A stretch of DNA of 64,000 nucleotides from Henricia sp. BOLD:AAB3569 (taxonomy: Eukaryota > Echinodermata > Asteroidea > Spinulosida > Echinasteridae): NCBI GenBank assembly GCA_037783545.1, contig JBBELK010000527.1:180202-244201 (forward strand), given 5' to 3'. The notes below the pieces were generated by a model. That model worked only from the letters and a program-made list of their open reading frames with translations, ran no database searches and was not told the DNA's origin. Position 1 is the stretch's first letter. Each line of letters opens with the position of its first letter. Shown here piece by piece: positions 1 through 24,028 of this stretch. Position numbers and translations under genes: made by a program.

Positions 1-102
1 TGAAGTTTGTCTGGAAATTCCTTCAGTTCCAAAATAGCGACCACTTCAAACGCAATGTTTCCCGAAAGCGGCGTCTGCTTGTGCAAAAACTGTGCCCGCA
101 AG

Positions 103-237
103 GAGTTTTTGCTAGATTCGACGATAACTCGGTCGGTTTAAACGGGAAATTGCTGAAATTTGCAGAACACGTTTGGGATATAGAGTTGTTTTAGCAGACA
201 AAAGTTGAAGTTTGTCTGGAAATTCCTTCAGTTCCAA
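103..237 (-). repeat. S205 segment homologous to S297 (one example)
   Basis: Read on the minus strand, these 135 bp align without any gap to the plus strand of S297, for example 19847-19981. By hand count 44 of the first 60 bases and 83 of all 135 are identical. The best-kept words are GAC.AACTTCAA, TTTTG, TGCT and ACTCTATAT, and a TAG followed by an A-rich run sits at the same distance (63 bases after CTATAT) in both. Differences are not concentrated at third codon positions, so the similarity does not look like a conserved coding sequence. Confidence 0.85.
131..147 (+). other. CENP-B-box-like motif (one example; in most S205 monomers)
   Basis: The established CENP-B box core is NTTCGNNNNANNCGGGN. 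The sequence here is GGTCGGTTTAAACGGGA, which matches eight of the nine fixed bases; only the first T of TTCG is G. The motif recurs every 205 bp. It drops to seven of nine in monomers with AACGAGAAA (for example at 205 and 820) or GGTTGG (7380). Function is inference: a CENP-B-like protein in this organism is not shown, and a one-mismatch hit could arise by chance in a monomer this size a few per cent of the time. Confidence 0.4.
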
Positions 238-3074
238 AATAGCGACCACTTCAGACGCAATGTTTCCCGAAAGCGGCGTCTGTTTGTGCGAAAACTGTTC
301 CGGCAAGGAGTTTTTGCTAGATTCGACGATAACTCGGTCGGTTTAAACGAGAAATTGCTAAAATTTGCAGAACACGTTTGGGATATAGAGTTGTTTTAGC
401 AGACAAAAGTTGAAGTTTGTCTGGAAATTCCGTCAGTTCCAAAATAGCGACCACTTCAAACGCAATGTTTCCCGAAAGCGGCGTCTGTTTGTGCGAAAAC
501 TGTTCCGGCAAGGAGTTTTTGCTAGATTCGACGATAACTCGGTCGGTTTAAACGGGAAATTGCTAAAATTTGCAGAACACGTTTGGGATATAGAGTTGTT
601 TTAGCAGACAAAAGTTGAAGTTTGTCTGGAAATTCCTTCAGTTCCAAAATAGCGACCACTTCAGACGCAATGTTTCCCGAAAGCGGCGTCTGTTTGTGCG
701 AAAACTGTTCCGGCAGAGAGTTTTTGCTAGATTCGACGATAACTCGGTCGGTTTAAACGGGAAATTGCTGAAATTTGCAGAACACGTTTGGGATATAGAG
801 TTGTTTTAGCAGACAAAAGTTGAAGTTTGTCTGGAAATTCCTTCAGTTCCAAAATAGCGACCACTTCAGACGCAATGTTTCCCGAAAGCGGCGTCTGTTT
901 GTGCGAAAACTGTTCCTGCAAGGAGTTTTTGCTAGATTCGACGATAACTCGGTCGGTTTAAACGAGAAATTGCTAAAATTTGCAGAACACGTTTGGGATA
1001 TAGAGTTGTTTTAGCAGACAAAAGTTGAAGTTTGTCTGGAAATTCCGTCAGTTCCAAAATAGCGACCACTTCAAACGCAATGTTTCCCGAAAGCGGCGTC
1101 TGCTTGTGCGAAAACTGTGCCGGCAAGGAGTTTTTGCTAGATTCGACGATAACTCGGTCGGTTTAAACGGGAAAATGCTAAAATTTGCAGAACACGTTTG
1201 GGATATAGAGTTGTTTAAGCAGGCAAAATTTGAAGTTTGTTTGGAAATTCCTTCAGTTCCAAAATAGCGACCACTTCAAACGCAATGTTTCCCGAAAGCG
1301 GCGTCTGTTTGTGCGAAAACTGTTCCGGCAGAGAGTTTTTGCTAGATTCGACGATAACTCGGTTGGTTTAAACGAGAAATTGCTAAAATTTGCAGAACAC
1401 GTTTAGGATATAGAGTTGTTTAAGCAGGCAAAATTTGAAGTTTGTTTGGAAATTCCTTCAGTTCCAAAATAGCGACCACTTCAAACGCAATGTTTCCCGA
1501 AAGCGGCGTCTGCTTGTGCGAAAACTGTGCCGGCAAGGGGTTTTTGCTAGATTCGACGATAACTCGGTCGGTTTAAACGGGAAATTGCTAAAATTTGCAG
1601 AACACGTTTGGGATATAGAGTTGTTTTAGCAGACAAAAGTTGAAGTTTGTCTGGAAATTCCTTCAGTTCCAAAATAGTGACCACTTCAGACGCAATGTTT
1701 CCCGAAAGCGGCGTCTGCTTGTGCAAAAACTGTGCCGGCAAGGAGTTTTTGCTAGATTCGACGATAACTCGGTCGGTTTAAACGGGAAAATGCTAAAATT
1801 TGCAGAACACGTTTGGGATATAGAGTTGTTTAAGCAGGCAAAATTTGAAGTTTGTTTGGAAATTCCTTCAGTTCCAAAATAGCGACCACTTCAAACGCAA
1901 TGTTTCCCGAAAGCGGCGTCTGTTTGTGCGAAAACTGTTCCGGCAAGGAGTTTTTGCTAGATTCGACGATAACTCGGTCGGTTTAAACGGGAAATTGCTA
2001 AAATTTGCAGAACACGTTTGGGATATAGAGTTGTTTTAGCAGACAAAAGTTGAAGTTTGTCTGGAAATTCCTTCAGTTCCAAAATAGCGACCACTTCAGA
2101 CGCAATGTTTCCCGAAAGCGGCGTCTGTTTGTGCGAAAACTGTGCCGGCAAGGAGTTTTTGCTAGATTCGACGATAACTCGGTCGGTTTAAACGGGAAAT
2201 TGCTGAAATTTGCAGAACACGTTTGGGATATAGAGTTGTTTTAGCAGACAAAAGTTGAAGTTTGTCTGGAAATTCCTTCAGTTCCAAAATAGCGACCACT
2301 TCAAACGCAATGTTTCCCGAAAGCGGCGTCTGTTTGTGCGAAAACTGTTCCGGCAGAGAGTTTTTGCTAGATTCGACGATAACTCGGTCGGTTTAAACGG
2401 GAAATTGCTGAAATTTGCAGAACACGTTTGGGATATAGAGTTGTTTAAGCAGGCAAAATTTGAAGTTTGTCTGGAAATTCCTTCAGTTCCAAAATAGCGA
2501 CCACTTCAAACGCAATGTTTCCCGAAAGCGGCGTCTGCTTGTGCAAAAACTGTGCCGGCAAGGAGTTTTTGCTAGATTCGACGATAACTCGGTCGGTTTA
2601 GACGGGAAATTGCTGAAATTTGCAGAACACGTTTGGGATATAGAGTTGTTTTAGCAGACAAAAGTTGAAGTTTGTCTGGAAATTCCTTTAGTTCCAAAAT
2701 AGCGACCACTTCAAACGCAATGTTTCCCGAAAGCGGCGTCTGTTTGTGCGAAAACTGTTCCGGCAGAGAGTTTTTGCTAGATTCGACGATAACTCGGTTG
2801 GTTTAAACGAGAAATTGCTAAAATTTGCAGAACACGTTTGGGATATAGAGTTGTTTAAGCAGGCAAAATTTGAAGTTTGTTTGGAAATTCCTTCAGTTCC
2901 AAAATAGCGACCACTTCAAACGCAATGTTTCCCGAAAGCGGCGTCTGCTTGTGCGAAAACTGTGCCGGCAAGGGGTTTTTGCTAGATTCGACGATAACTC
3001 GGTCGGTTTAAACGGGAAATTGCTAAAATTTGCAGAACACGTTTGGGATATAGAGTTGTTTTAGCAGACAAAAG

Positions 3075-3279
3075 TTGAAGTTTGTCTGGAAATTCCTTCA
3101 GTTCCAAAATAGCGACCACTTCAGACGCAATGTTTCCCGAAAGCGGCGTCTGTTTGTGCGAAAACTGTTCCGGCAGAGAGTTTTTGCTAGATTCGACGAT
3201 AACTCGGTCGGTTTAAACGGGAAATTGCTGAAATTTGCAGAACACGTTTGGGATATAGAGTTGTTTTAGCAGACAAAAG
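3075..3279 (+). repeat. Representative S205 monomer
   Basis: This unit shows the commonest form of the right half of the array: AGACGC, TGTTTG, GTTCCGGCAGAG, GCTGAAA and the TTAGCAGACAAAAG tail. Landmarks are the inverted repeat at 3122-3152, a single PmeI site (GTTTAAAC) about two thirds along, and the CENP-B-box-like motif overlapping that site. The start at TTGAAG is arbitrary, since a tandem repeat has no natural start. Confidence 0.9.
3122..3152. other. Inverted repeat in S205 (7-bp stem, 17-nt loop; one example)
   Basis: CAGACGC at 3122-3128 pairs perfectly with GCGTCTG at 3146-3152. Monomers with AAACGC in place of AGACGC lose one pair (A opposite C). Stem-intact monomers dominate from about 7.9 kb rightwards, whereas both forms are mixed before that. 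The structure could be a hairpin in DNA or transcript; no function is shown. Confidence 0.6.
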
Positions 3280-6200
3280 TTGAAGTTTGTCTGGAAATTC
3301 CTTCAGTTCCAAAATAGCGACCACTTCAAACGCAATGTTTCCCGAAAGCGGCGTCTGCTTGTGCAAAAACTGTGCCCGCAAGGAGTTTTTGCTAGATTCG
3401 ACGATAACTCGGTCGGTTTAAACGGGAAATTGCTGAAATTTGCAGAACACGTTTGGGATATAGAGTTGTTTTAGCAGACAAAAGTTGAAGTTTGTCTGGA
3501 AATTCCTTCAGTTCCAAAATAGCGACCACTTCAGACGCAATGTTTCCCGAAAGCGGCGTCTGTTTGTGCGAAAACTGTTCCGGCAAGGAGTTTTTGCTAG
3601 ATTCGACGATAACTCGGTCGGTTTAAACGAGAAATTGCTAAAATTTGCAGAACACGTTTGGGATATAGAGTTGTTTTAGCAGACAAAAGTTGAAGTTTGT
3701 CTGGAAATTCCGTCAGTTCCAAAATAGCGACCACTTCAAACGCAATGTTTCCCGAAAGCGGCGTCTGCTTGTGCGAAAGCTGTGCCGGCAAGGAGTTTTT
3801 GCTAGATTCGACGATAACTCGGTCGGTTTAAACGGGAAAATGCTAAAATTTGCAGAACACGTTTGGGATATAGAGTTGTTTAAGCAGGCAAAATTTGAAG
3901 TTTGTTTGGAAATTCCTTCAGTTCCAAAATAGCGACCACTTCAAACGCAATGTTTCCCGAAAGCGGCGTCTGTTTGTGCGAAAACTGTTCCGGCAAGGAG
4001 TTTTTGCTAGATTCGACGATAACTCGGTCGGTTTAAACGGGAAATTGCTAAAATTTGCAGAACACGTTTGGGATATAGAGTTGTTTTAGCAGACAAAAGT
4101 TGAAGTTTGTCTGGAAATTCCTTCAGTTCCAAAATAGCGACCACTTCAGACGCAATGTTTCCCGAAAGCGGCGTCTGTTTGTGCGAAAACTGTGCCGGCA
4201 AGGAGTTTTTGCTAGATTCGACGATAACTCGGTCGGTTTAAACGGGAAATTGCTGAAATTTGCAGAACACGTTTGGGATATAGAGTTGTTTTAGCAGACA
4301 AAAGTTGAAGTTTGTCTGGAAATTCCTTCAGTTCCAAAATAGCGACCACTTCAAACGCAATGTTTCCCGAAAGCGGCGTCTGTTTGTGCGAAAACTGTTC
4401 CGGCAGAGAGTTTTTGCTAGATTCGACGATAACTCGGTCGGTTTAAACGGGAAATTGCTGAAATTTGCAGAACACGTTTGGGATATAGAGTTGTTTAAGC
4501 AGGCAAAATTTGAAGTTTGTCTGGAAATTCCTTCAGTTCCAAAATAGCGACCACTTCAAACGCAATGTTTCCCGAAAGCGGCGTCTGCTTGTGCAAAAAC
4601 TGTGCCGGCAAGGAGTTTTTGCTAGATTCGACGATAACTCGGTCGGTTTAGACGGGAAATTGCTGAAATTTGCAGAACACGTTTGGGATATAGAGTTGTT
4701 TTAGCAGACAAAAGTTGAAGTTTGTCTGGAAATTCCTTTAGTTCCAAAATAGCGACCACTTCAAACGCAATGTTTCCCGAAAGCGGCGTCTGTTTGTGCG
4801 AAAACTGTTCCGGCAGAGAGTTTTTGCTAGATTCGACGATAACTCGGTTGGTTTAAACGAGAAATTGCTAAAATTTGCAGAACACGTTTGGGATATAGAG
4901 TTGTTTAAGCAGGCAAAATTTGAAGTTTGTTTGGAAATTCCTTCAGTTCCAAAATAGCGACCACTTCAAACGCAATGTTTCCCGAAAGCGGCGTCTGCTT
5001 GTGCGAAAACTGTGCCGGCAAGGGGTTTTTGCTAGATTCGACGATAACTCGGTCGGTTTAAACGGGAAATTGCTAAAATTTGCAGAACACGTTTGGGATA
5101 TAGAGTTGTTTTAGCAGACAAAAGTTGAAGTTTGTCTGGAAATTCCTTCAGTTCCAAAATAGCGACCACTTCAGACGCAATGTTTCCCGAAAGCGGCGTC
5201 TGTTTGTGCGAAAACTGTTCCGGCAGAGAGTTTTTGCTAGATTCGACGATAACTCGGTCGGTTTAAACGGGAAATTGCTGAAATTTGCAGAACACGTTTG
5301 GGATATAGAGTTGTTTTAGCAGACAAAAGTTGAAGTTTGTCTGGAAATTCCTTCAGTTCCAAAATAGCGACCACTTCAAACGCAATGTTTCCCGAAAGCG
5401 GCGTCTGCTTGTGCAAAAACTGTGCCCGCAAGGAGTTTTTGCTAGATTCGACGATAACTCGGTCGGTTTAAACGGGAAATTGCTGAAATTTGCAGAACAC
5501 GTTTGGGATATAGAGTTGTTTTAGCAGACAAAAGTTGAAGTTTGTCTGGAAATTCCTTCAGTTCCAAAATAGCGACCACTTCAGACGCAATGTTTCCCGA
5601 AAGCGGCGTCTGTTTGTGCGAAAACTGTTCCGGCAAGGAGTTTTTGCTAGATTCGACGATAACTCGGTCGGTTTAAACGAGAAATTGCTAAAATTTGCAG
5701 AACACGTTTGGGATATAGAGTTGTTTTAGCAGACAAAAGTTGAAGTTTGTCTGGAAATTCCGTCAGTTCCAAAATAGCGACCACTTCAAACGCAATGTTT
5801 CCCGAAAGCGGCGTCTGCTTGTGCGAAAGCTGTGCCGGCAAGGAGTTTTTGCTAGATTCGACGATAACTCGGTCGGTTTAAACGGGAAAATGCTAAAATT
5901 TGCAGAACACGTTTGGGATATAGAGTTGTTTAAGCAGGCAAAATTTGAAGTTTGTTTGGAAATTCCTTCAGTTCCAAAATAGCGACCACTTCAAACGCAA
6001 TGTTTCCCGAAAGCGGCGTCTGTTTGTGCGAAAACTGTTCCGGCAAGGAGTTTTTGCTAGATTCGACGATAACTCGGTCGGTTTAAACGGGAAATTGCTA
6101 AAATTTGCAGAACACGTTTGGGATATAGAGTTGTTTTAGCAGACAAAAGTTGAAGTTTGTCTGGAAATTCCTTCAGTTCCAAAATAGCGACCACTTCAGA

Positions 6201-6764
6201 CGCAATGTTTCCCGAAAGCGGCGTCTGTTTGTGCGAAAACTGTGCCGGCAAGGAGTTTTTGCTAGATTCGACGATAACTCGGTCGGTTTAAACGGGAAAT
6301 TGCTGAAATTTGCAGAACACGTTTGGGATATAGAGTTGTTTTAGCAGACAAAAGTTGAAGTTTGTCTGGAAATTCCTTCAGTTCCAAAATAGCGACCACT
6401 TCAAACGCAATGTTTCCCGAAAGCGGCGTCTGTTTGTGCGAAAACTGTTCCGGCAGAGAGTTTTTGCTAGATTCGACGATAACTCGGTCGGTTTAAACGG
6501 GAAATTGCTGAAATTTGCAGAACACGTTTGGGATATAGAGTTGTTTAAGCAGGCAAAATTTGAAGTTTGTCTGGAAATTCCTTCAGTTCCAATATAGCGA
6601 CCACTTCAAACGCAATGTTTCCCGAAAGCGGCGTCTGCTTGTGCAAAAACTGTGCCGGCAAGGAGTTTTTGCTAGATTCGACGATAACTCGGTCGGTTTA
6701 GACGGGAAATTGCTGAAATTTGCAGAACACGTTTGGGATATAGAGTTGTTTTAGCAGACAAAAG

Positions 6765-7584
6765 TTGAAGTTTGTCTGGAAATTCCTTCAGTTCCAAAAT
6801 AGCGACCACTTCAGACGCAATGTTTCCCGAAAGCGGCGTCTGTTTGTGCGAACACTGTTCCGGCAGAGAGTTTTTGCTAGGTTCGACGATAACTCGGTCG
6901 GTTTAAACGGGAAATTGCTGAAATTTGCAGAACACGTTTGGGATATAGAGTTGTTTTAGCAGACAAAAGTTGAAGTTTGTCTGGAAATTCCTTCAGTTCC
7001 AAAATAGCGACCACTTCAGACGCAATGTTTCCCGAAAGCGGCGTCTGTTTGTGCGAAAACTGTTCCGGCAAGGAGTTTTTGCTAGATTCGACGATAACTC
7101 GGTCGGTTTAAACGGGAAATTGCTAAAATTTGCAGAACACGTTTGGGATATAGAGTTGTTTTAGCAGACAAAAGTTGAAGTTTGTCTGGAAATTCCGTCA
7201 GTTCCAAAATAGCGACCACTTCAAACGCAATGTTTCCCGAAAGCGGCGTCTGCTTGTGCGAAAACTGTGCCGGCAAGGAGTTTTTGCTAGATTCGACGAT
7301 AACTCGGTCGGTTTAAACGGGAAAATGCTAAAATTTGCAGAACACGTTTGGGATATAGAGTTGTTTTAGCAGGCAAAATTTGAAGTTTGTTTGGAAATTC
7401 CTTCAGTTCCAAAATAGCGACCACTTCAAACGCAATGTTTCCCGAAAGCGGCGTCTGCTTGTGCGAAAACTGTGCCGGCAAGGAGTTTTTGCTAGATTCG
7501 ACGATAACTCGGTTGGTTTAAACGGGAAATTGCTGAAATTTGCAGAACACGTTTGGGATATAGAGTTGTTTAAGCAAGCAAAAT
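6765..7584. repeat. S205 zone 3: transition monomers
   Basis: Four monomers lie between the two block repeats. They include private changes (GCGAACACTG and GCTAGGTTCG near 6850-6890) and, at 7380, a monomer with GGTTGG and a TAAGCAAGCAAAATT tail. That tail recurs only near 18871 at the far right of the array, which suggests an exchange between distant parts of the array. Confidence 0.8.
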
Positions 7585-9956
7585 TTGAAGTTTGTCTGGA
7601 AATTCCTTCAGTTCCAAAATAGCGACCACTTCAGACGCAATGTTTCCCGAAAGCGGCGTCTGCTTGTGCGAAAACTGTGCCGGCAAGGAGTTTTTGCTAG
7701 ATTCGACGATAACTCGGTCGGTTTAAACGGGAAATTGCTAACATTTGCAGAACACGTTTGGGATATAGAGTTGTTTTAGCAGACAAAAGTTGAAGTTTGT
7801 CTGGAAATTCCGTCAGTTCCAAAATAGCGACCACTTCAAACGCAATGTTTCCCGAAAGCGGCGTCTGTTTGTGCGAAAACTGTTCCGGCAGAGAGTTTTT
7901 GCTAGATTCGACGATAACTCGGTCGGTTTAAACGTCCAAAATAGCGACCACTTCAGACGCAATGTTTCCCGAAAGCGGCGTCTGTTTGTGCGAAAACTGT
8001 TCCGGCAGAGAGTTTTTGCTAGATTCGACGATAACTCGGTCGGTTTAAACGGGAAATTGCTGAAATTTGCAGAACACGTTTGGGATATAGAGTTGTTTTA
8101 GCAGACAAAAGTTGAAGTTTGTCTGGAAATTCCTTCAGTTCCAAAATAGCGACCACTTCAGACGCAATGTTTCCCGAAAGCGGCGTCTGTTTGTGCGAAA
8201 ACTGTTCCGGCAGAGAGTTTTTGCTAGATTCGACGATAACTCGGTCGGTTTAAACGGGAAATTGCTGAAAATTGGAGAACACGTTTGGGATATAGAGTTG
8301 TTTTAGCAGACAAAAGTTGAAGTTTGTCTGGAAATTCCTTCAGTTCCAAAATAGCGACCACTTCAGACGCAATGTTTCCCGAAAGCGGCGTCTGTTTGTG
8401 CGAAAACTGTTCCGGCAGAGAGTTTTTGCTAGATTCGACGATAACTCGGTCGGTTTAAACGGGAAATTGCTGAAATTTGCAGAACACGTTTGGGATATAG
8501 AGTTGTTTAAGCAGACAAAAGTTGAAGTTTGTCTGGAAATTCCTTCAGTTCCAAAATAGCGACCACTTCAGACGCAATGTTTCCCGAAAGCGGCGTCTGT
8601 TTGTGCGAAAACTGTTCCGGCAGAGAGTTTTTGCTAGATTCGACGATAACTCGGTCGGTTTAAACGGGAAATTGCTGAAATTTGCAGAACACGTTTGGGA
8701 TATAGAGTTGTTTTAGCAGACAAAAGTTGAAGTTTGTCTGGAAATTCCTTCAGTTCCAAAATAGCGACCACTTCAGACGCAATGTTTCCCGAAAGCGGCG
8801 TCTGTTTGTGCGAAAACTGTTCCGGCAGAGAGTTTTTGCTAGATTCGACGATAACTCGGTCGGTTTAAACGGGAAATTGCTGAAAATTGGAGAACACGTT
8901 TGGGATATAGAGTTGTTTTAGCAGACAAAAGTTGAAGTTTGTCTGGAAATTCCTTCAGTTCCAAAATAGCGACCACTTCAGACGCAATGTTTCCCGAAAG
9001 CGGCGTCTGTTTGTGCGAAAACTGTTCCGGCAGAGAGTTTTTGCTAGATTCGACGATAACTCGGTCGGTTTAAACGGGAAATTGCTAAAATTTGCAGAAC
9101 ACGTTTGGGATATAGAGTTGTTTAAGCAGGCAAAATTTGAAGTTTGTTTGGAAATTCCTTCAGTTCCAAAATAGCGACCACTTCAGACGCAATGTTTCCC
9201 GAAAGCGGCGTCTGCTTGTGCGAAAACTGTTCCGGCAGAGAGTTTTTGCTAGATTCGACGATAACTCGGTCGGTTTAAACGGGAAATTGCTGAAATTTGC
9301 AGAACACGTTTGGGATATAGAGTTGTTTTAGCAGACAAAAGTTGAAGTTTGTCTGGAAATTCCTTCAGTTCCAAAATAGCGACCACTTCAGACGCAATGT
9401 TTCCCGAAAGCGGCGTCTGTTTGTGCGAAAACTGTTCCGGCAGAGAGTTTTTGCTAGATTCGACGATAACTCGGTCGGTTTAAACGGGAAATTGCTGAAA
9501 TTTGCAGAACACGTTTGGGATATAGAGTTGTTTTAGCAGACAAAAGTTGAAGTTTGTCTGGAAATTCCTTCAGTTCCAAAATAGCGACCACTTCAGACGC
9601 AATGTTTCCCGAAAGCGGCGTCTGTTTGTGCGAGAACTGTTCCGGCAGAGAGTTTTTGCTAGATTCGACGATAACTCGGTCGGTTTAAACGGGAAATTGC
9701 TAAAATTTGCAGAACACGTTTGGGATATAGAGTTGTTTAAGCAGGCAAAATTTGAAGTTTGTTTGGAAATTCCTTCAGTTCCAAAATAGCGACCACTTCA
9801 GACGCAATGTTTCCCGAAAGCGGCGTCTGTTTGTGCGAAAACTGTTCCGGCAGAGAGTTTTTGCTAGATTCGACGATAACTCGGTCGGTTTAAACGGGAA
9901 ATTGCTGAAATTTGCAGAACACGTTTGGGATATAGAGTTGTTTTAGCAGACAAAAG
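7585..9956. repeat. S205 zone 4: 12-monomer block, copy 1 (2372 bp)
   Basis: This block equals twelve monomers minus an 88-bp deletion (12 x 205 - 88 = 2372). Its marks in order are GCTAACATT in the first monomer, the deleted pair at 7790-8111, and GAAAATTGGAGAAC in the monomers at 8112 and 8727, 615 bp (three monomers) apart. The next 2372 bp repeat the same order. Confidence 0.93.
7790..8111. repeat. S205 deletion junction, copy 1 (322-bp fused pair)
   Basis: A monomer runs 145 bp, to AAACG at 7934, and then continues at TCCAAAATAGCG, position 29 of the next monomer. The last 60 bp of one unit and the first 28 bp of the next are missing, an 88-bp deletion. I see no more than a base of shared sequence at the break. 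The CENP-B-box-like motif is lost here because the break removes its CGGG. Confidence 0.95.
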
Positions 9957-12328
9957 TTGAAGTTTGTCTGGAAATTCCTTCAGTTCCAAAATAGCGACCA
10001 CTTCAGACGCAATGTTTCCCGAAAGCGGCGTCTGCTTGTGCGAAAACTGTGCCGGCAAGGAGTTTTTGCTAGATTCGACGATAACTCGGTCGGTTTAAAC
10101 GGGAAATTGCTAACATTTGCAGAACACGTTTGGGATATAGAGTTGTTTTAGCAGACAAAAGTTGAAGTTTGTCTGGAAATTCCGTCAGTTCCAAAATAGC
10201 GACCACTTCAAACGCAATGTTTCCCGAAAGCGGCGTCTGTTTGTGCGAAAACTGTTCCGGCAGAGAGTTTTTGCTAGATTCGACGATAACTCGGTCGGTT
10301 TAAACGTCCAAAATAGCGACCACTTCAGACGCAATGTTTCCCGAAAGCGGCGTCTGTTTGTGCGAAAACTGTTCCGGCAGAGAGTTTTTGCTAGATTCGA
10401 CGATAACTCGGTCGGTTTAAACGGGAAATTGCTGAAATTTGCAGAACACGTTTGGGATATAGAGTTGTTTTAGCAGACAAAAGTTGAAGTTTGTCTGGAA
10501 ATTCCTTCAGTTCCAAAATAGCGACCACTTCAGACGCAATGTTTCCCGAAAGCGGCGTCTGTTTGTGCGAAAACTGTTCCGGCAGAGAGTTTTTGCTAGA
10601 TTCGACGATAACTCGGTCGGTTTAAACGGGAAATTGCTGAAAATTGGAGAACACGTTTGGGATATAGAGTTGTTTTAGCAGACAAAAGTTGAAGTTTGTC
10701 TGGAAATTCCTTCAGTTCCAAAATAGCGACCACTTCAGACGCAATGTTTCCCGAAAGCGGCGTCTGTTTGTGCGAAAACTGTTCCGGCAGAGAGTTTTTG
10801 CTAGATTCGACGATAACTCGGTCGGTTTAAACGGGAAATTGCTGAAATTTGCAGAACACGTTTGGGATATAGAGTTGTTTAAGCAGACAAAAGTTGAAGT
10901 TTGTCTGGAAATTCCTTCAGTTCCAAAATAGCGACCACTTCAGACGCAATGTTTCCCGAAAGCGGCGTCTGTTTGTGCGAAAACTGTTCCGGCAGAGAGT
11001 TTTTGCTAGATTCGACGATAACTCGGTCGGTTTAAACGGGAAATTGCTGAAATTTGCAGAACACGTTTGGGATATAGAGTTGTTTTAGCAGACAAAAGTT
11101 GAAGTTTGTCTGGAAATTCCTTCAGTTCCAAAATAGCGACCACTTCAGACGCAATGTTTCCCGAAAGCGGCGTCTGTTTGTGCGAAAACTGTTCCGGCAG
11201 AGAGTTTTTGCTAGATTCGACGATAACTCGGTCGGTTTAAACGGGAAATTGCTGAAAATTGGAGAACACGTTTGGGATATAGAGTTGTTTTAGCAGACAA
11301 AAGTTGAAGTTTGTCTGGAAATTCCTTCAGTTCCAAAATAGCGACCACTTCAGACGCAATGTTTCCCGAAAGCGGCGTCTGTTTGTGCGAAAACTGTTCC
11401 GGCAGAGAGTTTTTGCTAGATTCGACGATAACTCGGTCGGTTTAAACGGGAAATTGCTAAAATTTGCAGAACACGTTTGGGATATAGAGTTGTTTAAGCA
11501 GGCAAAATTTGAAGTTTGTTTGGAAATTCCTTCAGTTCCAAAATAGCGACCACTTCAGACGCAATGTTTCCCGAAAGCGGCGTCTGCTTGTGCGAAAACT
11601 GTTCCGGCAGAGAGTTTTTGCTAGATTCGACGATAACTCGGTCGGTTTAAACGGGAAATTGCTGAAATTTGCAGAACACGTTTGGGATATAGAGTTGTTT
11701 TAGCAGACAAAAGTTGAAGTTTGTCTGGAAATTCCTTCAGTTCCAAAATAGCGACCACTTCAGACGCAATGTTTCCCGAAAGCGGCGTCTGTTTGTGCGA
11801 AAACTGTTCCGGCAGAGAGTTTTTGCTAGATTCGACGATAACTCGGTCGGTTTAAACGGGAAATTGCTGAAATTTGCAGAACACGTTTGGGATATAGAGT
11901 TGTTTTAGCAGACAAAAGTTGAAGTTTGTCTGGAAATTCCTTCAGTTCCAAAATAGCGACCACTTCAGACGCAATGTTTCCCGAAAGCGGCGTCTGTTTG
12001 TGCGAGAACTGTTCCGGCAGAGAGTTTTTGCTAGATTCGACGATAACTCGGTCGGTTTAAACGGGAAATTGCTAAAATTTGCAGAACACGTTTGGGATAT
12101 AGAGTTGTTTAAGCAGGCAAAATTTGAAGTTTGTTTGGAAATTCCTTCAGTTCCAAAATAGCGACCACTTCAGACGCAATGTTTCCCGAAAGCGGCGTCT
12201 GCTTGTGCGAAAACTGTTCCGGCAGAGAGTTTTTGCTAGATTCGACGATAACTCGGTCGGTTTAAACGGGAAATTGCTGAAATTTGCAGAACACGTTTGG
12301 GATATAGAGTTGTTTTGGCAGACAAAAG
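9957..12328. repeat. S205 zone 4: 12-monomer block, copy 2 (2372 bp)
   Basis: Every mark of copy 1 recurs 2372 bp later: GCTAACATT at about 10110, the deleted pair at 10162-10483, GAAAATTGGAGAAC in the monomers at 10484 and 11099, and GCGAGAACTG in the monomer at 11919 (9547 in copy 1). Only the last monomer, at 12124, departs: it has TGCTTG and ends in TTGGCAG, so the exact right limit is uncertain by one monomer. Confidence 0.92.
10162..10483. repeat. S205 deletion junction, copy 2 (322-bp fused pair)
   Basis: The same 145 + 177 bp fusion recurs, with the break between 10306 and 10307, exactly 2372 bp from the first. An identical breakpoint implies one deletion followed by block duplication, not two events. 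Confidence 0.95.
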
Positions 12329-14378
12329 TTGAAGTTTGTCTGGAAATTCCTTCAGTTCCAAAATAGCGACCACTTCAGACGCAATGTTTCCCGAAAGCGG
12401 CGTCTGTTTGTGCGAAAACTGTTCCGGCAGAGAGTTTTTGCTAGATTCGACGATAACTCGGTCGGTTTAAACGGGAAATTGCTGAAATTTGCAGAACACG
12501 TTTGGGATATAGAGTTGTTTTAGCAGACAAAAGTTGAAGTTTGTCTGGAAATTCCTTCAGTTCCAAAATAGCGACCACTTCAGACGCAATGTTTCCCGAA
12601 AGCGGCGTCTGTTTGTGCGAAAACTGTTCCGGCAGAGAGTTTTTGCTAGATTCGACGATAACTCGGTCGGTTTAAACGGGAAATTGCTGAAATTTGCAGA
12701 ACACGTTTGGGATATAGAGTTGTTTTAGCAGACAAAAGTTGAAGTTTGTCTGGAAATTCCTTCAGTTCCAAAATAGCGACCACTTCAGACGCAATGTTTC
12801 CCGAAAGCGGCGTCTGTTTGTGCGAAAACTGTTCCGGCAGAGAGTTTTTGCTAGATTCGACGATAACTCGGTCGGTTTAAACGGGAAATTGCTAAAATTT
12901 GCAGAACACGTTTGGGATATAGAGTTGTTTAAGCAGGCAAAATTTGAAGTTTGTTTGGAAATTCCTTCAGTTCCAAAATAGCGACCACTTCAGACGCAAT
13001 GTTTCCCGAAAGCGGCGTCTGCTTGTGCGAAAACTGTTCCGGCAGAGAGTTTTTGCTAGATTCGACGATAACTCGGTCGGTTTAAACGGGAAATTGCTGA
13101 AATTTGCAGAACACGTTTGGGATATAGAATTGTTTAAGCAGGCAAAATTTGAAGTTTGTCTGGAAATTCCTTCAGTTCCAAAATAGCGACCACTTCAGAC
13201 GCAATGTTTCCCGAAAGCGGCGTCTGCTTGTGCGAAAACTGTGCCGGCAAGGAGTTTTTGCTAGATTCGACGATAACTCGGTCGGTTTAAACGGGAAATT
13301 GCTAAAATTTGCAGAACACGTTTGGGATATAGAATTGTTTAAGCAGGCAAAATTTGAAGTTTGTTTGGAAATTCCTTCAGTTCCAAAATAGCGACCACTT
13401 CAAACGCAATGTTTCCCGAAAGCGGCGTCTGCTTGTGCAAAAACTGTGCCGGCAAGGAGTTTTTGCTAGATTCGACGATAACTCGGTCGGTTTAAACGGG
13501 AAATTGCTAAAATTTGCAGAACACGTTTGGGATATAGAGTTGTTTAAGCAGGCAAAATTTGAAGTTTGTTTGGAAATTCCTTCAGTTCCAAAATAGCGAC
13601 CACTTCAGACGCAATGTTTCCCGAAAGCGGCGTCTGCTTGTGCGAAAACTGTTCCGGCAGAGAGTTTTTGCTAGATTCGACGATAACTCGGTCGGTTTAA
13701 ACGGGAAATTGCTGAAATTTGCAGAACACGTTTGGGATATAGAGTTGTTTTAGCAGACAAAAGTTGAAGTTTGTCTGGAAATTCCTTCAGTTCCAAAATA
13801 GCGACCACTTCAGACGCAATGTTTCCCGAAAGCGGCGTCTGTTTGTGCGAAAACTGTTCCGGCAGAGAGTTTTTGCTAGATTCGACGATAACTCGGTCGG
13901 TTTAAACGGGAAATTGCTGAAATTTGCAGAACACGTTTGGGATATAGAGTTGTTTTAGCAGACAAAAGTTGAAGTTTGTCTGGAAATTCCTTCAGTTCCA
14001 AAATAGCGACCACTTCAGACGCAATGTTTCCCGAAAGCGGCGTCTGTTTGTGCGAAAACTGTTCCGGCAGAGAGTTTTTGCTAGATTCGACGATAACTCG
14101 GTCGGTTTAAACGGGAAATTGCTGAAATTTGCAGAACACGTTTGGGATATAGAGTTGTTTTAGCAGACAAAAGTTGAAGTTTGTCTGGAAATTCCTTCAG
14201 TTCCAAAATAGCGACCACTTCAGACGCAATGTTTCCCGAAAGCGGCGTCTGTTTGTGCGAAAACTGTTCCGGCAGAGAGTTTTTGCTAGATTCGACGATA
14301 ACTCGGTCGGTTTAAACGGGAAATTGCTGAAATTTGCAGAACACGTTTGGGATATAGAGTTGTTTTAGCAGACAAAAG
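12329..14378. repeat. S205 zone 5a: start of the 17-monomer register
   Basis: The series from 12739 (TAAGCAGG tail; AGAATTG in the monomers at 12944 and 13149; GTGCAAAAACTG in the monomer at 13354) recurs 3485 bp (17 monomers) later, from 16224. Most monomers here are of the AGACGC / TTCCGGCAGAG type. No unique sequence is present. Confidence 0.85.
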
Positions 14379-16838
14379 TTGAAGTTTGTCTGGAAATTCC
14401 TTCAGTTCCAAAATAGCGACCACTTCAGACGCAATGTTTCCCGAAAGCGGCGTCTGTTTGTGCGAAAACTGTTCCGGCAGAGAGTTTTTGCTAGATTCGA
14501 CGATAACTCGGTCGGTTTAAACGGGAAATTGCTGAAAATTGGAGAACACGTTTGGGATATAGAGTTGTTTTAGCAGACAAAAGTTGAAGTTTGTCTGGAA
14601 ATTCCTTCAGTTCCAAAATAGCGACCACTTCAGACGCAATGTTTCCCGAAAGCGGCGTCTGTTTGTGCGAAAACTGTTCCGGCAGAGAGTTTTTGCTAGA
14701 TTCGACGATAACTCGGTCGGTTTAAACGGGAAATTGCTAAAATTTGCAGAACACGTTTGGGATATAGAGTTGTTTAAGCAGGCAAAATTTGAAGTTTGTT
14801 TGGAAATTCCTTCAGTTCCAAAATAGCGACCACTTCAGACGCAATGTTTCCCGAAAGCGGCGTCTGCTTGTGCGAAAACTGTTCCGGCAGAGAGTTTTTG
14901 CTAGATTCGACGATAACTCGGTCGGTTTAAACGGGAAATTGCTGAAATTTGCAGAACACGTTTGGGATATAGAGTTGTTTTAGCAGACAAAAGTTGAAGT
15001 TTGTCTGGAAATTCCTTCAGTTCCAAAATAGCGACCACTTCAGACGCAATGTTTCCCGAAAGCGGCGTCTGTTTGTGCGAAAACTGTTCCGGCAGAGAGT
15101 TTTTGCTAGATTCGACGATAACTCGGTCGGTTTAAACGGGAAATTGCTGAAATTTGCAGAACACGTTTGGGATATAGAGTTGTTTAAGCAGGCAAAATTT
15201 GAAGTTTGTTTGGAAATTCCTTCAGTTCCAAAATAGCGACCACTTCAGACGCAATGTTTCCCGAAAGCGGCGTCTGCTTGTGCGAAAACTGTTCCGGCAG
15301 AGAGTTTTTGCTAGATTCGACGATAACTCGGTCGGTTTAAACGGGAAATTGCTGAAATTTGCAGAACACGTTTGGGATATAGAGTTGTTTTAGCAGACAA
15401 AAGTTGAAGTTTGTCTGGAAATTCCTTCAGTTCCAAAATAGCGACCACTTCAGACGCAATGTTTCCCGAAAGCGGCGTCTGTTTGTGCGAAAACTGTTCC
15501 GGCAGAGAGTTTTTGCTAGATTCGACGATAACTCGGTCGGTTTAAACGGGAAATTGCTGAAATTTGCAGAACACGTTTGGGATATAGAGTTGTTTTAGCA
15601 GACAAAAGTTGAAGTTTGTCTGGAAATTCCTTCAGTTCCAAAATAGCGACCACTTCAGACGCAATGTTTCCCGAAAGCGGCGTCTGTTTGTGCGAAAACT
15701 GTTCCGGCAGAGAGTTTTTGCTAGATTCGACGATAACTCGGTCGGTTTAAACGGGAAATTGCTGAAAATTGGAGAACACGTTTGGGATATAGAGTTGTTT
15801 TAGCAGACAAAAGTTGAAGTTTGTCTGGAAATTCCTTCAGTTCCAAAATAGCGACCACTTCAGACGCAATGTTTCCCGAAAGCGGCGTCTGTTTGTGCGA
15901 AAACTGTTCCGGCAGAGAGTTTTTGCTAGATTCGACGATAACTCGGTCGGTTTAAACGGGAAATTGCTAAAATTTGCAGAACACGTTTGGGATATAGAGT
16001 TGTTTAAGCAGGCAAAATTTGAAGTTTGTTTGGAAATTCCTTCAGTTCCAAAATAGCGACCACTTCAGACGCAATGTTTCCCGAAAGCGGCGTCTGCTTG
16101 TGCGAAAACTGTTCCGGCAGAAAGTTTTTGCTAGATTCGACGATAACTCGGTCGGTTTAAACGGGAAATTGCTGAAATTTGCAGAACACGTTTGGGATAT
16201 AGAGTTGTTTTAGCAGACAAAAGTTGAAGTTTGTCTGGAAATTCCTTCAGTTCCAAAATAGCGACCACTTCAGACGCAATGTTTCCCGAAAGCGGCGTCT
16301 GTTTGTGCGAAAACTGTTCCGGCAGAGAGTTTTTGCTAGATTCGACGATAACTCGGTCGGTTTAAACGGGAAATTGCTGAAATTTGCAGAACACGTTTGG
16401 GATATAGAGTTGTTTAAGCAGGCAAAATTTGAAGTTTGTTTGGAAATTCCTTCAGTTCCAAAATAGCGACCACTTCAGACGCAATGTTTCCCGAAAGCGG
16501 CGTCTGCTTGTGCGAAAACTGTTCCGGCAGAGAGTTTTTGCTAGATTCGACGATAACTCGGTCGGTTTAAACGGGAAATTGCTGAAATTTGCAGAACACG
16601 TTTGGGATATAGAATTGTTTAAGCAGGCAAAATTTGAAGTTTGTCTGGAAATTCCTTCAGTTCCAAAATAGCGACCACTTCAGACGCAATGTTTCCCGAA
16701 AGCGGCGTCTGCTTGTGCGAAAACTGTGCCGGCAAGGAGTTTTTGCTAGATTCGACGATAACTCGGTCGGTTTAAACGGGAAATTGCTAAAATTTGCAGA
16801 ACACGTTTGGGATATAGAATTGTTTAAGCAGGCAAAAT
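14379..16838. repeat. S205 zone 5b: 6-monomer HOR, 1230-bp period, two copies
   Basis: The monomers at 14379 and 15609 both carry GAAAATTGGAGAAC. The next five units follow largely the same order of TGCTTG/TGTTTG and TTAG/TAAG variants, 1230 bp apart. One private change in copy 2 is GGCAGAAAG in the monomer at 16019. This 6-mer is nested inside the 17-monomer register. Confidence 0.85.
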
Positions 16839-19206
16839 TTGAAGTTTGTTTGGAAATTCCTTCAGTTCCAAAATAGCGACCACTTCAAACGCAATGTTTC
16901 CCGAAAGCGGCGTCTGCTTGTGCAAAAACTGTGCCGGCAAGGAGTTTTTGCTAGATTCGACGATAACTGGTCGGTTTAGACGGGAAATTGCTAAAATTTG
17001 CAGAACACGTTTGGGATATAGAGTTGTTTAAGCAGGCAAAATTTGAAGTTTGTTTGGAAATTCCTTCAGTTCCAAAATAGCGACCACTTCAGACGCAATG
17101 TTTCTCGAAAGCGGCGTCTGCTTGTGCGAAAACTGTTCCGGCAGAGCGTTTTTGCTAGATTCGACGATAACTCGGTCGGTTTAAACGGGAAATTGCTGAA
17201 ATTTGCAGAACACGTTTGGGATATAGAGTTGTTTTAGCAGACAAAAGTTGAAGTTTGTCTGGAAATTCCTTCAGTTCCAAAATAGCGACCACTTCAGACG
17301 CAATGTTTCCCGAAAGCGGCGTCTGTTGTGCGAAAACTGTTCCGGCAGAGAGTTTTTGCTAGATTCGACGATAACTCGGTCGGTTTAAACGGGAAATTGC
17401 TGAAATTTGCAGAACACGTTTGGGATATAGAGTTGTTTTAGCAGACAAAAGTTGAAGTTTGTCTGGAAATTCCTTCAGTTCCAAAATAACGACCACTTCA
17501 GACGCAATGTTTCCCGAAAGCGGCGTCTGTTTGTGCGAAAACTGTTCCGGCAGAGAGTTTTTGCTAGATTCGACGATAACTCGGTCGGTTTAAACGGGAA
17601 ATTGCTGAAATTTGCAGAACACGTTTGGGATATAGAGTTGTTTTAGCAGACAAAAGTTGAAGTTTGTCTGGAAATTCCTTCAGTTCCAAAATAGCGACCA
17701 CTTCAGACGCAATGTTTCCCGAAAGCGGCGTCTGTTTGTGCGAAAACTGTTCCGGCAGAGAGTTTTTGCTAGATTCGACGATAACTCGGTCGGTTTAAAC
17801 GGGAAATTGCTGAAATTTGCAGAACACGTTTGGGATATAGAGTTGTTTTAGCAGACAAAAGTTGAAGTTTGTCTGGAAATTCCTTTAGTTCCAAAATAGC
17901 GACCACTTCAGACGCAATGTTTCCCGAAAGCGGCGTCTGTTTGTGCGAAAACTGTTCCGGCAGAGAGTTTTTGCTAGATTCGACGATAACTCGGTCGGTT
18001 TAAACGGGAAATTGCTGAAAATTGGAGAACACGTTTGGGATATAGAGTTGTTTTAGCAGACAAAAGTTGAAGTTTGTCTGGAAATTCCTTCAGTTCCAAA
18101 ATAGCGACCACTTCAGACGCAATGTTTCCCGAAAGCGGCGTCTGTTTGTGCGAAAACTGTTCCGGCAGAGAGTTTTTGCTAGATTCGACGATAACTCGGT
18201 CGGTTTAAACGGGAAATTGCTAAAATTTGCAGAACACGTTTGGGATATAGAGTTGTTTAAGCAGGCAAAATTTGAAGTTTGTTTGGAAATTCCTTCAGTT
18301 TCAAAATAGCGACCACTTCAGACGCAATGTTTCTCGAAAGCGGCGTCTGCTTGTGCGAAAACTGTTCCGGCAGAGCGTTTTTGCTAGATTCGACGATAAC
18401 TCGGTCGGTTTAAACGGGAAATTGCTGAAATTTGCAGAACACGTTTGGGATATAGAGTTGTTTTAGCAGACAAAAGTTGAAGTTTGTCTGGAAATTCCTT
18501 CAGTTCCAAAATAGCGACCACTTCAGACGCAATGTTTCCCGAAAGCGGCGTCTGTTGTGCGAAAACTGTTCCGGCAGAGAGTTTTTGCTAGATTCGACGA
18601 TAACTCGGTCGGTTTAAACGGGAAATTGCTGAAATTTGCAGAACACGTTTGGGATATAGAGTTGTTTTAGCAGACAAAAGTTGAAGTTTGTCTGGAAATT
18701 CCTTCAGTTCCAAAATAGCGACCACTTCAGACGCAATGTTTCCCGAAAGCGGCGTCTGCTTGTGCGAAAACTGTTCCGGCAGAGAGTTTTTGCTAGATTC
18801 GACGATAACTCGGTTGGTTTAAACGGGAAATTGCTGAAATTTGCAGAACACGTTTGGGATATAGAGTTGTTTAAGCAAGCAAAATTTGAAGTTTGTCTGG
18901 AAATTCCTTCAGTTCCAAAATAGCGACCACTTCAGACGCAATGTTTCCCGAAAGCGGCGTCTGCTTGTGCGAAAACTGTGCCGGCAAGGAGTTTTTGCTA
19001 GATTCGACGATAACTCGGTCGGTTTAAACGGGAAATTGCTAAAATTTGCAGAACACGTTTGGGATATATAATTGTTTAAGCAGGCAAAATTTGAAGTTTG
19101 TCTGGAAATTCCTTCAGTTCCAAAATAGCGACCACTTCAAACGCAATGTTTCCCGAAAGCGGCGTCTGCTTGTGCGAAAACTGTGCCGGCAAGGAGTTTT
19201 TGCTAG
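16839..19206. repeat. S205 zone 5c: right edge of the array, with small indels
   Basis: Single-base deletions appear here that are absent elsewhere: ATAACTGGTCGG (near 16968), and GTCTGTTGTGCG in place of GTCTGTTTGTGCG near 17325 and again near 18555, about 1230 bp apart. The monomers at 17043 and 18272 share TTTCTCG and GGCAGAGCG, confirming the 6-monomer register. The last three monomers switch back to the GTGCCGGCAAGG type and carry ATATATAATTG before the array is cut. Decay near an array edge is typical of satellites. Confidence 0.85.
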
Positions 19207-19207
19207 T
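19205..19207. other. Junction between S205 and S297 arrays
   Basis: S205 reads GTTTTTGCTAG up to 19206 and the next base begins TTTGGGACGGG of S297. Normal S205 would continue ATTCGACG, and normal S297 would be preceded by GGCCCAG. The two share only AG at 19205-19206. Both monomers are cut mid-unit (S205 after 116 of 205 bp), no target-site duplication or unique filler is visible, and the pattern fits end joining with 2-bp microhomology. Confidence 0.92.
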
Positions 19208-19846
19208 TTGGGACGGGATTTTGGTCAAAGTGTAGTCCAAACGTCGGCAAATTTGGAGGTCGAAAAATTTTCCGACGAACTTCAAATTTTGCATGCTCCA
19301 AACACTCTATATTGCGCATTGTCCTAAAAAATTGACAGACTTTCGCCGGGAAATGGCAGAGAAATTTCAGAGTTTAGAAAAAAAAACTGGGTTGGGGCTT
19401 CCTGGATGCTCCCGCAACCTGTGGCTGTCTGTACGCACCTCTTTGGTGTACTCCTGACTCCTGCGCATGTTCAGTCCTTCGGACTGTCGTTGACACGGCC
19501 CAGTTTGGGACGGGATTTTGGTCAAAGTGTGGTCCAAACGTCGGCAAATTTGGAGGTCGAAAAATTTTCCGACGAACTTCAAATTTTGCATGCTCCAAAC
19601 ACTCTATATTGCGCACTTGTCCTAAAAAATTGACAGACTTTCCCTGGGAAATGGCAGAGAAATTTCAGAGTTTAGAAAAAAAACTGGGTTGGGTCTTCCT
19701 GGATGCTCCCGCAACCTGTGGCTGTCTGTACGCACCTCTTTGGTGTACTCCTGACTCCTGCGCATGCTCAGTCCTTCGGACTGTCGTTGACACGGCCCAG
19801 TTTAGGAAGGGATTTTGGTCAAAGTGTGGTCCAAACGTCGGCAAAT

Positions 19847-19981
19847 TTGGAGGTCGAAAAATTTTCCGACGAACTTCAAATTTTGCATGCTCCAAACACT
19901 CTATATTGCGCACTTGTCCTAAAAAATTGACAGACTTTCGCCGGGAAATGGCAGAGAAATTTCAGAGTTTAGAAAAAAAAC
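19847..19981 (+). repeat. S297 segment homologous to S205 (one example)
   Basis: This is the partner of the S205 segment at 103-237 (minus strand). The remaining part of the unit is 162 bp in S297 and 70 bp in S205, so the whole 92-bp length difference lies in one interval. Within that interval CGGGA and GTGGTC occur in the same order in both, suggesting the outer parts are also related and that about 90 bp with the hairpins was gained by S297 or lost by S205. Confidence 0.85.
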
Positions 19982-22887
19982 TGGGTTGGGGCTTCCTGGA
20001 TGCTCCCGCAACCTGTGGCTGTCTGTACGCACCTCTTTGGTGTACTCCTGACTCCTGCGCATGCTCAGTCCTTCGGACTGTCGTTGACACGGCCCAGTTT
20101 GGGACGGGATTTTGGTCAAAGTGTGGTCCAAACGTCGGCAAATTTGGAGGTCGAAAAATTTTCCGACGAACTTCAAATTTTGCATGCTCCAAACACTCTA
20201 TATTGCGCACTTGTCCTAAAAAATTGACAGACTTTCGCCGGGAAATAACAGAGAAATTTCAGAGTTTAGAAAAAAAACTGGGTTGGGGCTTCCTGGATGC
20301 TCCCGCAACCTGTGGCTGTCTGTACGCACCTCTTTGGTGTACTCCTGACTCCTGCGCATGCTCAGTCCTCCGGACTGTCGTTGACACGGCCCAGTTTGGG
20401 ACGGGATTTTGGTCAAAGTGTAGTCCAAACGTCGGCAAATTTGGAGGTCGAAAAATTTTCCGACGAACTTTAAATTTTGCATGCTCCAAACACTCTATAT
20501 TGCGCACTTGTCCTAAAAAATTGACAGACTTTCGCCGGGAAATGGCAGAGAAATTTCAGAGTTTAGAAAAAAAACTGGGTTGGGGCTTCCTGGATGCTCC
20601 CGCAACCTGTGGCTGTCTGTACGCACCTCTTTGGTGTACTCCTGACTCATGCGCATGCTCAGTCCTTCGGACTGTCGTTGACACGGCCCAGTTTGGGACG
20701 GGATTTTGGTCAAAGTGTGGTCCAAACGTCGGCAAATTTGGAGGTCGAAAAATTTTCCGACGAACTTCAAATTTTGCATGCTCCAAACACTCTATATTGC
20801 GCACTTGTCCTAAAAAATTGACAGACTTTCGCCGGGAAATAACAGAGAAATTTCAGAGTTTAGAAAAAAAACTGGGTTGGGGCTTCCTGGATGCTCCCGC
20901 AACCTGTGGCTGTCTGTACGCACCTCTTTGGTGTACTCCTGACTCCTGCGCATGCTCAGTCCTCCGGACTGTCGTTGACACGGCCCAGTTTGGGACGGGA
21001 TTTTGGTCAAAGTGTAGTCCAAACGTCGGCAAATTTGGAGGTCGAAAAATTTTCCGACGAACTTTAAATTTTGCATGCTCCAAACACTCTATATTGCGCA
21101 CTTGTCCTAAAAAATTGACAGACTTTCGCCGGGAAATGGCAGAGAAATTTAAGAGTTTAGAAAAAAAACTGGGTTGGGGCTTCCTGGATGCTCCCGCAAC
21201 CTGTGGCTGTCTGTACGCACCTCTTTGGTGTACTCCTGACTCCTGCGCATGCTCAGTCCTTCGGACTGTCGTTGACACGGCCCAGTTTGGGACGGGATTT
21301 TGGTCAAAGTGTGGTCCAAACGTCGGCAAATTTGGAGGTCGAAAAATTTTCCGACGAACTTCAAATTTTGCATGCTCCAAACACTCTATATTGCGCACTT
21401 GTCCTAAAAAATTGACAGACTTTCGCCGGGAAATGGCAGAGAAATTTCAAAGTTTAGAAAAAAAACTTGGTTGGGGCTTCCTGGATGCTCCCGCAACCTG
21501 TGGCTGTCTGTACGCACCTCTTTGGTGTACTCCTGACTCCTGCGCATGCTCAGTCCTTCGGACTGTCGTTGACACGGCCCAGTTTGGGACGGGATTTTGG
21601 TCAAAGTGTGGTCCAAACGTCGGCAAATTTGGAGGTCGAAAAAATTTCCGACGAACTTCAAATTTTGCATGCTCCAAACACTCTATATTGCGCACTTGTC
21701 CTAAAAAATTGACAGACTTTCGCCGGGAAATGGCAGAGAAATTTCAGAGTTTAGAAAAAAAACTCGGTTGGGGCTTCCTGGATGCTCCCGCAACCTGTGG
21801 CTGTCTGTACGCACCTCTTTGGTGTACTCCTGACTCCTGCGCATGCTCAGTCCTTCGGACTGTCGTTGACACGGCCCAGTTTGGGACGGGATTTTGGTCA
21901 AAGTGTGGTCCAAACGTCGGCAAATTTGGAGGTCGAAAAATTTTCCGACGAACTTCAAATTTTGCATGCTCCAAACACTCTATATTGCGCACTTGTCCTA
22001 AAAAATTGACAGACTTTCCCTGGGAAATGGCAGAGAAATTTCAGAGTTTAGAAAAAAAACTGGGTTGGGTCTTCCTGGATGCTCCCGCAACCTGTGGCTG
22101 TCTGTACGCACCTCTTTGGTGTACTCCTGACTCCTGCGCATGCTCAGTCCTTCGGACTGTCGTTGACACGGCCCAGTTTAGGAAGGGATTTTGGTCAAAG
22201 TGTGGTCCAAACGTCGGCAAATTTGGAGGTCGAAAAATTTTCCGACGAACTTCAAATTTTGCATGCTCCAAACACTCTATATTGCGCACTTGTCCTAAAA
22301 AATTGACAGACTTTCGCCGGGAAATGGCAGAGAAATTTCAGAGTTTAGAAAAAAAACTGGGTTGGGGCTTCCTGGATGCTCCCGCAACCTGTGGCTGTCT
22401 GTACGCACCTCTTTGGTGTACTCCTGACTCCTGCGCATGCTCAGTCCTTCGGACTGTCGTTGACACGGCCCAGTTTGGGACGGGATTTTGGTCAAAGTGT
22501 GGTCCAAACGTCGGCAAATTTGGAGGTCGAAAAATTTTCCGACGAACTTCAAATTTTGCATGCTCCAAACACTCTATATTGCGCACTTGTCCTAAAAAAT
22601 TGACAGACTTTCGCCGGGAAATAACAGAGAAATTTCAGAGTTTAGAAAAAAAACTGGGTTGGGGCTTCCTGGATGCTCCCGCAACCTGTGGCTGTCTGTA
22701 CGCACCTCTTTGGTGTACTCCTGACTCCTGCGCATGCTCAGTCCTCCGGACTGTCGTTGACACGGCCCAGTTTGGGACGGGATTTTGGTCAAAGTGTAGT
22801 CCAAACGTCGGCAAATTTGGAGGTCGAAAAATTTTCCGACGAACTTTAAATTTTGCATGCTCCAAACACTCTATATTGCGCACTTGT

Positions 22888-23184
22888 CCTAAAAAATTGA
22901 CAGACTTTCGCCGGGAAATGGCAGAGAAATTTCAGAGTTTAGAAAAAAAACTGGGTTGGGGCTTCCTGGATGCTCCCGCAACCTGTGGCTGTCTGTACGC
23001 ACCTCTTTGGTGTACTCCTGACTCCTGCGCATGCTCAGTCCTTCGGACTGTCGTTGACACGGCCCAGTTTGGGACGGGATTTTGGTCAAAGTGTGGTCCA
23101 AACGTCGGCAAATTTGGAGGTCGAAAAATTTTCCGACGAACTTCAAATTTTGCATGCTCCAAACACTCTATATTGCGCACTTGT
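22888..23184 (+). repeat. Representative S297 monomer (subfamily A, 297 bp)
   Basis: This is a consensus-like unit from CCTAAAAAATTG to the base before the next one. Two small inverted repeats lie in its middle: GTACGCACC (22995-23003) with GGTGTAC (23009-23015), imperfect, and CAGTCC-TTC-GGACTG (23036-23050), a perfect 6-bp stem with a 3-nt loop. Both sit in the part of the unit that has no counterpart of equal length in S205. Confidence 0.9.
23036..23050. other. Perfect small inverted repeat in S297 (one example)
   Basis: CAGTCC and GGACTG are exact reverse complements around TTC. Variants: CAGTCCTCCGGACTG keeps the stem (near 20366); CAATCCTTCGGACTG loses one pair (near 51430, 52022, 52617); subfamily B has CAGTACTTCGGACTG, which also breaks one pair. 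The stem is too short and lacks the U run of a bacterial terminator. Confidence 0.6.
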
Positions 23185-24010
23185 CCTAAAAAATTGACAG
23201 ACTTTCGCCGGGAAATGGCAGAGAAATTTCAGAGTTTAGAAAAAAAACTGGGTTGGGGCTTCCTGGATGCTCCCGCAACCTGTGGCTGTCTGTACGCACC
23301 TCTTTGGTGTACTCCTGACTCCTGCGCATGCTCAGTCCTTCGGACTGTCGTTGACACGGCCCAGTTTGGGACGGGATTTTGGTCAAAGTGTGGTCCAAAC
23401 GTCGGCAAATTTGGAGGTCGAAAAATTTTCCGACGAACTTCAAATTTTGCATGCTCCAAACACTCTATATTGCGCACTTGTCCTAAAAAATTGACAGACT
23501 TTCGCCGGGAAATAACAGAGAAATTTCAGAGTTTAGAAAAAAAACTGGGTTGGGGCTTCCTGGATGCTCCCGCAACCTGTGGCTGTCTGTACGCACCTCT
23601 TTGGTGTACTCCTGACTCCTGCGCATGCTCAGTCCTCCGGACTGTCGTTGACACGGCCCAGTTTGGGACGGGATTTTGGTCAAAGTGTAGTCCAAACGTC
23701 GGCAAATTTGGAGGTCGAAAAATTTTCCGACGAACTTTAAATTTTGCATGCTCCAAACACTCTATATTGCGCACTTGTCCTAAAAAATTGACAGACTTTC
23801 GCCGGGAAATGGCAGAGAAATTTCAGAGTTTAGAAAAAAAACTGGGTTGGGGCTTCCTGGATGCTCCCGCAACCTGTGGCTGTCTGTACGCACCTCTTTG
23901 GTGTACTCCTGACTCCTGCGCATGCTCAGTCCTTCGGACTGTCGTTGACACGGCCCAGTTTGGGACGGGATTTTGGTCAAAGTGTGGTCCAAACGTCGGC
24001 AAATTTGGAG

Positions 24011-24028
24011 GTCGAAAAATTTTTCGAC
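24011..24028. other. 18-bp perfect palindrome variant of the GTCGAAAAATTTTCCGAC element
   Basis: Most S297 units carry GTCGAAAAATTTTCCGAC, an imperfect dyad. One C-to-T change makes GTCGAAAAATTTTTCGAC, a perfect 18-bp palindrome, here and at 43798-43815 and 46468-46485. Palindromes like this can bind dimeric proteins or extrude; no function is shown. Confidence 0.6.

Follow-up and report, generated by a model that had tools for sequence, protein, structure and literature searches.

Two satellite arrays abut in this stretch of DNA, and the locus raises the question of whether their units derive from a common monomer, and of whether the opposite orientation in which they meet follows a rule. 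The window, by which we mean the whole stretch that was analysed, comprises the last 64 kb of the 244,201-bp contig C527, which belongs to an assembly of 740.7 Mb in 2104 contigs. Labelling with BLAST divides it into an array of 205-bp units (S205; 1..19204, minus strand) and an array of 297/296-bp units (S297; 19205..64000, plus strand), the latter reaching the contig end, and TRF returns a period of 205 spanning 1-19206 and a period of 297 spanning 19205-64000. The minus strand of S205 is here the strand homologous to S297 plus, and S205 plus corresponds to S297 minus. Leftward, the S205 array of the window extends in C527 to about 11.2 kb, giving the contig a layout of S297(-) from 1 to ~11,213, S205(+) up to 199,405 and S297(+) from there to the end. 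S205 in a single orientation (+) is found in all ten one-kb samples taken between 25 and 148 kb (one of which also holds an insert), and within the sampled parts C527 is almost entirely satellite. In both S205 and S297, homogenised units are repeated head to tail over long distances, as is expected of a satellite.

The arrays carry some structure of their own. Within S205, the stretch 7936-10306 and the next 2371 bases, offset by 2372 bp, are 99.6% identical and constitute a local higher-order repeat, with a 117-bp partial unit near each of the two stretches. Open frames in the S297 array are as long as 1926 codons (19609-25389), a length made possible by 297 being divisible by three; we take them as by-products, broken at units of 296 or 298 bp.

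The case for common descent begins with single units. The reverse complement of 103-237, the aligned stretch of one S205 unit, gives 83 identities over the 135 positions of an ungapped alignment with 19847-19981, 44 of them in the best 60-base stretch. These are exactly the coordinates and counts reported in the first-pass annotation, and the TAG followed by an A-rich run, which it had placed at equal distance in the two units, does occupy identical columns of the ungapped 135-bp alignment of S205(-) with S297(+). The expectation of 35-40 identities against which that annotation had judged the match applies to one fixed pairing, but the alignment had been picked as the best among offsets and orientations, which makes that expectation too lenient; shuffles with a free offset average 55.

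Consensus monomers were accordingly derived from the window, using 62 copies of exactly 205 bp out of 78 between-anchor intervals for S205 and 30 copies of exactly 297 bp out of 76 intervals for S297, where the anchor missed many copies, and these were circularised and compared in both orientations against dinucleotide shuffles. The gapped reverse-complement score of 260 is reached by none of 2000 shuffles (mean 96, maximum 189), so that the relationship proposed from single copies also holds for consensus monomers under circular permutation. The best ungapped match between the consensuses (61/88 identities) has a +1/-1 score of 34, compared with a maximum of 17 in 1000 shuffles, none of which reaches it, and an extrapolated P of about 1e-10. 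With any offset around the circle and either strand allowed, the best 135-base segment contains 84 identities, against a mean of 55 and a maximum of 61 in 500 shuffles. Nor is there an equally good match in the same orientation, which the first-pass annotation had named as a possible objection: the gapped score of 107 is equalled or passed by 484 of 2000 shuffles, which is chance level, the best 135-base window holds 56 identities, and the two original stretches agree on the same strand at 32 of 135 positions (18/60 in the shorter comparison). Homology in the same orientation is ruled out by these values.

Short runs of A and T are abundant in both units, and the similarity might on that account be attributed to chance, as the product of A- and T-rich runs. 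Such an explanation is barely conceivable, given that no dinucleotide shuffle, whatever the offset and strand, attains the observed scores (0/2000, 0/1000 and 0/500) and that the same-orientation comparison sits at chance level. The two families are confirmed to be related beyond chance, and in reverse-complement orientation only.

The relationship does not extend over the entire units. Most of the homology falls within the first 100 bp of the shared core, which score 195 against a shuffle maximum of 100 (n=1000), and the 3' 55 bp of the core, tested alone, are marginal, with 39 of 1000 shuffles as good. In one S297 unit the core occupies 19818..19981 on the plus strand, homologous to the S205 minus strand, and is followed by a G+C-rich part (19982..20093, plus strand) without a counterpart in S205. 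When the remaining 55 bp of S205 are compared with the remaining 137 bp of S297, no homology is found, 855 of 1000 shuffles scoring at least as high, and homology of these family-specific blocks is thereby ruled out. What the analysis supports is the common origin of a core some 100 bp long, and marginally of one reaching about 140-155 bp; the shared origin read from the sequence at the outset stands for the ~100-bp core and fails for whole monomers, the remainders of which are unrelated. Larger consensuses, built from 462 S205 and 609 S297 monomers, give 95/139 identities (68%) in a gapped alignment, and the divergence between the cores of the two families is about 31%. Compared with this value of 68% between families, mean pairwise identities within families are high, at 95.9% for S205 and 97.3% for S297 (100 random pairs each).

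No signal of internal sub-repeats as building units was obtained, the self-alignment scores being reached by 72/300 shuffles for the S205 core, 121/300 for the S297 core and 250/300 for the whole S297 unit. Likewise, as regards an origin from a structured RNA, no Rfam match was found in the window at gathering scores, nor at 18700-20700 up to E = 5, and the single-strand folds lie at shuffle level (z -0.65 and -0.25).

Both families occur in high copy number. Core words, allowing up to 2 mismatches, have 44,497 matches for S205 and 236,736 for S297 across the assembly, and reversed core words give 0 matches assembly-wide for either family. At 205 bp per unit S205 amounts to ~9.1 Mb (1.2%) of the 740.7 Mb, and at ~296 bp per unit S297 amounts to ~70 Mb (9.5%), in an assembly that may hold both haplotypes and with counts that miss more diverged copies; together they make up about a tenth of the assembly. 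Among the matches listed, S297 is present on at least 18 contigs, and both families are present on C527, C67, C16 and C296.

The abundance of copies offers an opportunity to look for a direction of descent. At sites that differ between the consensuses, variants carried by at least three copies point towards the other family in 7 of 17 cases in S205 and in 14 of 37 cases in S297, no clear excess over the one third or so that is expected; the corresponding figures are 16/34 and 26/69 for all variants, and 3/5 and 2/10 for variants with ten or more copies. A probe pattern for intermediates, TTTTGNNTGCTNNANNNACTCTATATR, designed to skip the usual form of both families, matches 295 times, and among the 89 readable matches no intermediate is found, 66 being plainly S297 and 23 plainly S205. 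The copy that comes nearest to one is the S297 copy that borders non-satellite DNA at the end of an array on contig C917 (L031:4762-5054), the core of which is the closest to S205 among 302 distinct S297 cores, with a score of 283 as against 169-266 for the 15 other copies of that locus. At six family-differing sites it carries five substitutions towards S205 and one that is not, although two of them, one in either direction, are variants common in S297, and it differs from both families at four sites where the families agree. This array-end copy is a weak hint that S297 was once more like S205, and is counted as a hint only because it was chosen as the best match.

The relative orientation of the arrays was assessed at three S205/S297 junctions. 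That of the window (19200..19212), at the right end of the C527 S205 array, is the sole one of the three in which the families meet in opposite orientation. At the left end of the same array, at ~11.2 kb, S297 and S205 are in homologous orientation, and the same is true of contig C67, where S297(+) is present in samples at 2, 40, 45 and 50 kb, with a piece of retrotransposon at 20 kb, switches at ~55,096 to S205(-) and is followed by S205(-) still at 185 kb; five samples from 190-330 kb of C67 are unlike either family. The proposal that the families sit as inverted neighbours consequently describes the junction in the window and not the other two.

S297 is divided into subfamilies, one of which adjoins S205 in both relative orientations. 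S297 of the window type is found on C67 at 40 kb, where two monomers are 0.993-0.997 identical to the window consensus versus 0.966-0.973 for the other subfamilies tested, and at the C67 junction itself, where 96/96 S297 bases match the window consensus and the next best groups match at 94/95. The left S297 block of C527 matches instead C67 at 2 kb (three monomers, consensus identity 1.000). The units are broken at three different positions in the three junctions, which share AG (2 bp, in the window), GCGG (C527 left) and GT (C67) between the joined units, and an in-register crossover inside the shared core is seen at none of the three. A change of orientation also occurs within one family, ~1.5 kb of S297 on C855 being inverted inside an S297 array (L029:5184-6708).

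At the window junction the inverted arrangement is a local event rather than a rule, the result either of one inversion or of an assembly join. A join of two non-neighbouring arrays during assembly would account for the fact that the 24-base word across the window junction has a single occurrence in the 740.7-Mb assembly, up to 2 mismatches, in a contig that is almost wholly satellite where sampled. We nevertheless regard this as rather unlikely, as the two arrays meet cleanly, sharing 2 bp, much as they do at the other two junctions, and inversions in S297 arrays, such as that on C855, do exist.

Several inserts were encountered in the arrays. A 359-bp element with inverted ends lies inside S205 with TTAA flanks on both sides (L004:1797-2155, at ~178 kb of C527), flanks that we take to be as after a piggyBac-like insertion, and it recurs in L005-L007 and L046 (C527 ~25.4 kb); its recurrence along the array suggests that the element spread together with S205. 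In S297, an insert of ~697 bp with short internal repeats is present on C390 (L019:2193-2890, 6739-7435 and 8622-9317) and on C541 (L023:9873-10000), the latter contig also holding three copies of a SINE-like 234-bp insert within the S297 array (L023:4786-5019, 5623-5856 and 8242-8475), the start of which is tRNA-like in our own reading. Inside the S297 block of C67, L037 (C67:20001-21000) contains a 333-aa open frame with an Exo_endo_phos endonuclease/exonuclease domain, as would be found in non-LTR retrotransposons. In the same assembly, the 48.6-kb contig C955 contains three COX1 copies 16,221 bp apart, a mitochondrial genome assembled as a tandem, presumably as the artefact of a circle. 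The COX1 gene reads with the echinoderm code, and NADH dehydrogenase subunit 1 (Pfam NADHdh, E 5e-52) and five of the six tRNAs found in the mitochondrial fragment lie on the strand opposite to COX1, an arrangement that we take to be that of sea stars; on these features the host appears to be a sea star.

Considering these results together, S205 and S297 are very probably two families of one satellite superfamily, with a core from one ancestral monomer and with the orientation in the window produced by inversion or inverted insertion. The core of ~100 bp (possibly 140-155 bp) would have been inherited by both families from that monomer, and the sequence outside it would have been gained, lost or replaced separately in the two. 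Unequal exchange and amplification, the processes by which satellites are generally homogenised, presumably keep the copies of each family alike within its arrays. The arrays, which probably lie in heterochromatin, may have come to abut through breakage and joining, out of register and with 2-4 bp of shared sequence. Because the S297 subfamily of the window lies beside S205 in homologous orientation on C67, a single inversion of an S297 block, or its insertion in inverted form, would explain how the two arrays face each other in the window.

Only part of each unit is homologous, and mobile elements do occur inside S205 and S297 arrays, both of which would also be compatible with a core that came from one transposable element (e.g. 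a MITE or a SINE tail) and seeded two satellites independently, in which case the families would not be sisters as tandem repeats. This origin appears quite improbable, the inserts found being unlike the core and a model of the core having no convincing match, at E up to 10, in ~10 kb of non-satellite samples (L037, L041-L045 and L033). As neither intermediates nor a direction were found, the data do not discriminate between a single tandem monomer as ancestor and two captures from the same source. We give little credence to the suggestion that the core has been kept alike, in two satellites that are otherwise unrelated, by function, perhaps as the binding site of a chromatin or centromere protein; if true, the pair would identify a functional module within a highly abundant sea-star satellite, with the rest of the unit replaceable. 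With its conserved core, the pair offers a handle for testing binding sites, the position of the centromere and the turnover of satellites in echinoderms.

The relation between S205 and S297 is itself of a familiar, ordinary kind. Related monomers in neighbouring arrays, with switches of orientation between blocks, are features of the Drosophila 1.688 and primate alpha satellites, which S205 and S297 resemble in both respects, by description rather than by sequence. For sea stars, searches of the accessible text of open papers turned up no description of satellite families by sequence. In that text, mentions of the spiny starfish in PMC10153287 are limited to its references and one data table, the word satellite is absent from the genome papers PMC10394057 and PMC10625585, and a further sea-star genome paper gives a satellite total of 1.80% and nothing more on satellites (PMC11090083). 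According to the available text of a study of grasshopper satellitomes, subfamilies are >95%, families >80% and superfamilies >40% identical (PMC8822648). Set against this rule, the identity of S205 and S297 is 68% (95/139) on the aligned part, between the 40% and 80% limits, and on this part the pair would rank as two families of one superfamily; the 95 identities amount to 46% of the full S205 unit and 32% of the full S297 unit, the counting of partial matches being unstated in that text. Judged from the same text, S205 and S297 differ from the grasshopper superfamilies in that their homology is partial and their arrays directly abut, and are like them in comprising recognisable families of low identity, with different unit lengths, in one genome (PMC8822648).
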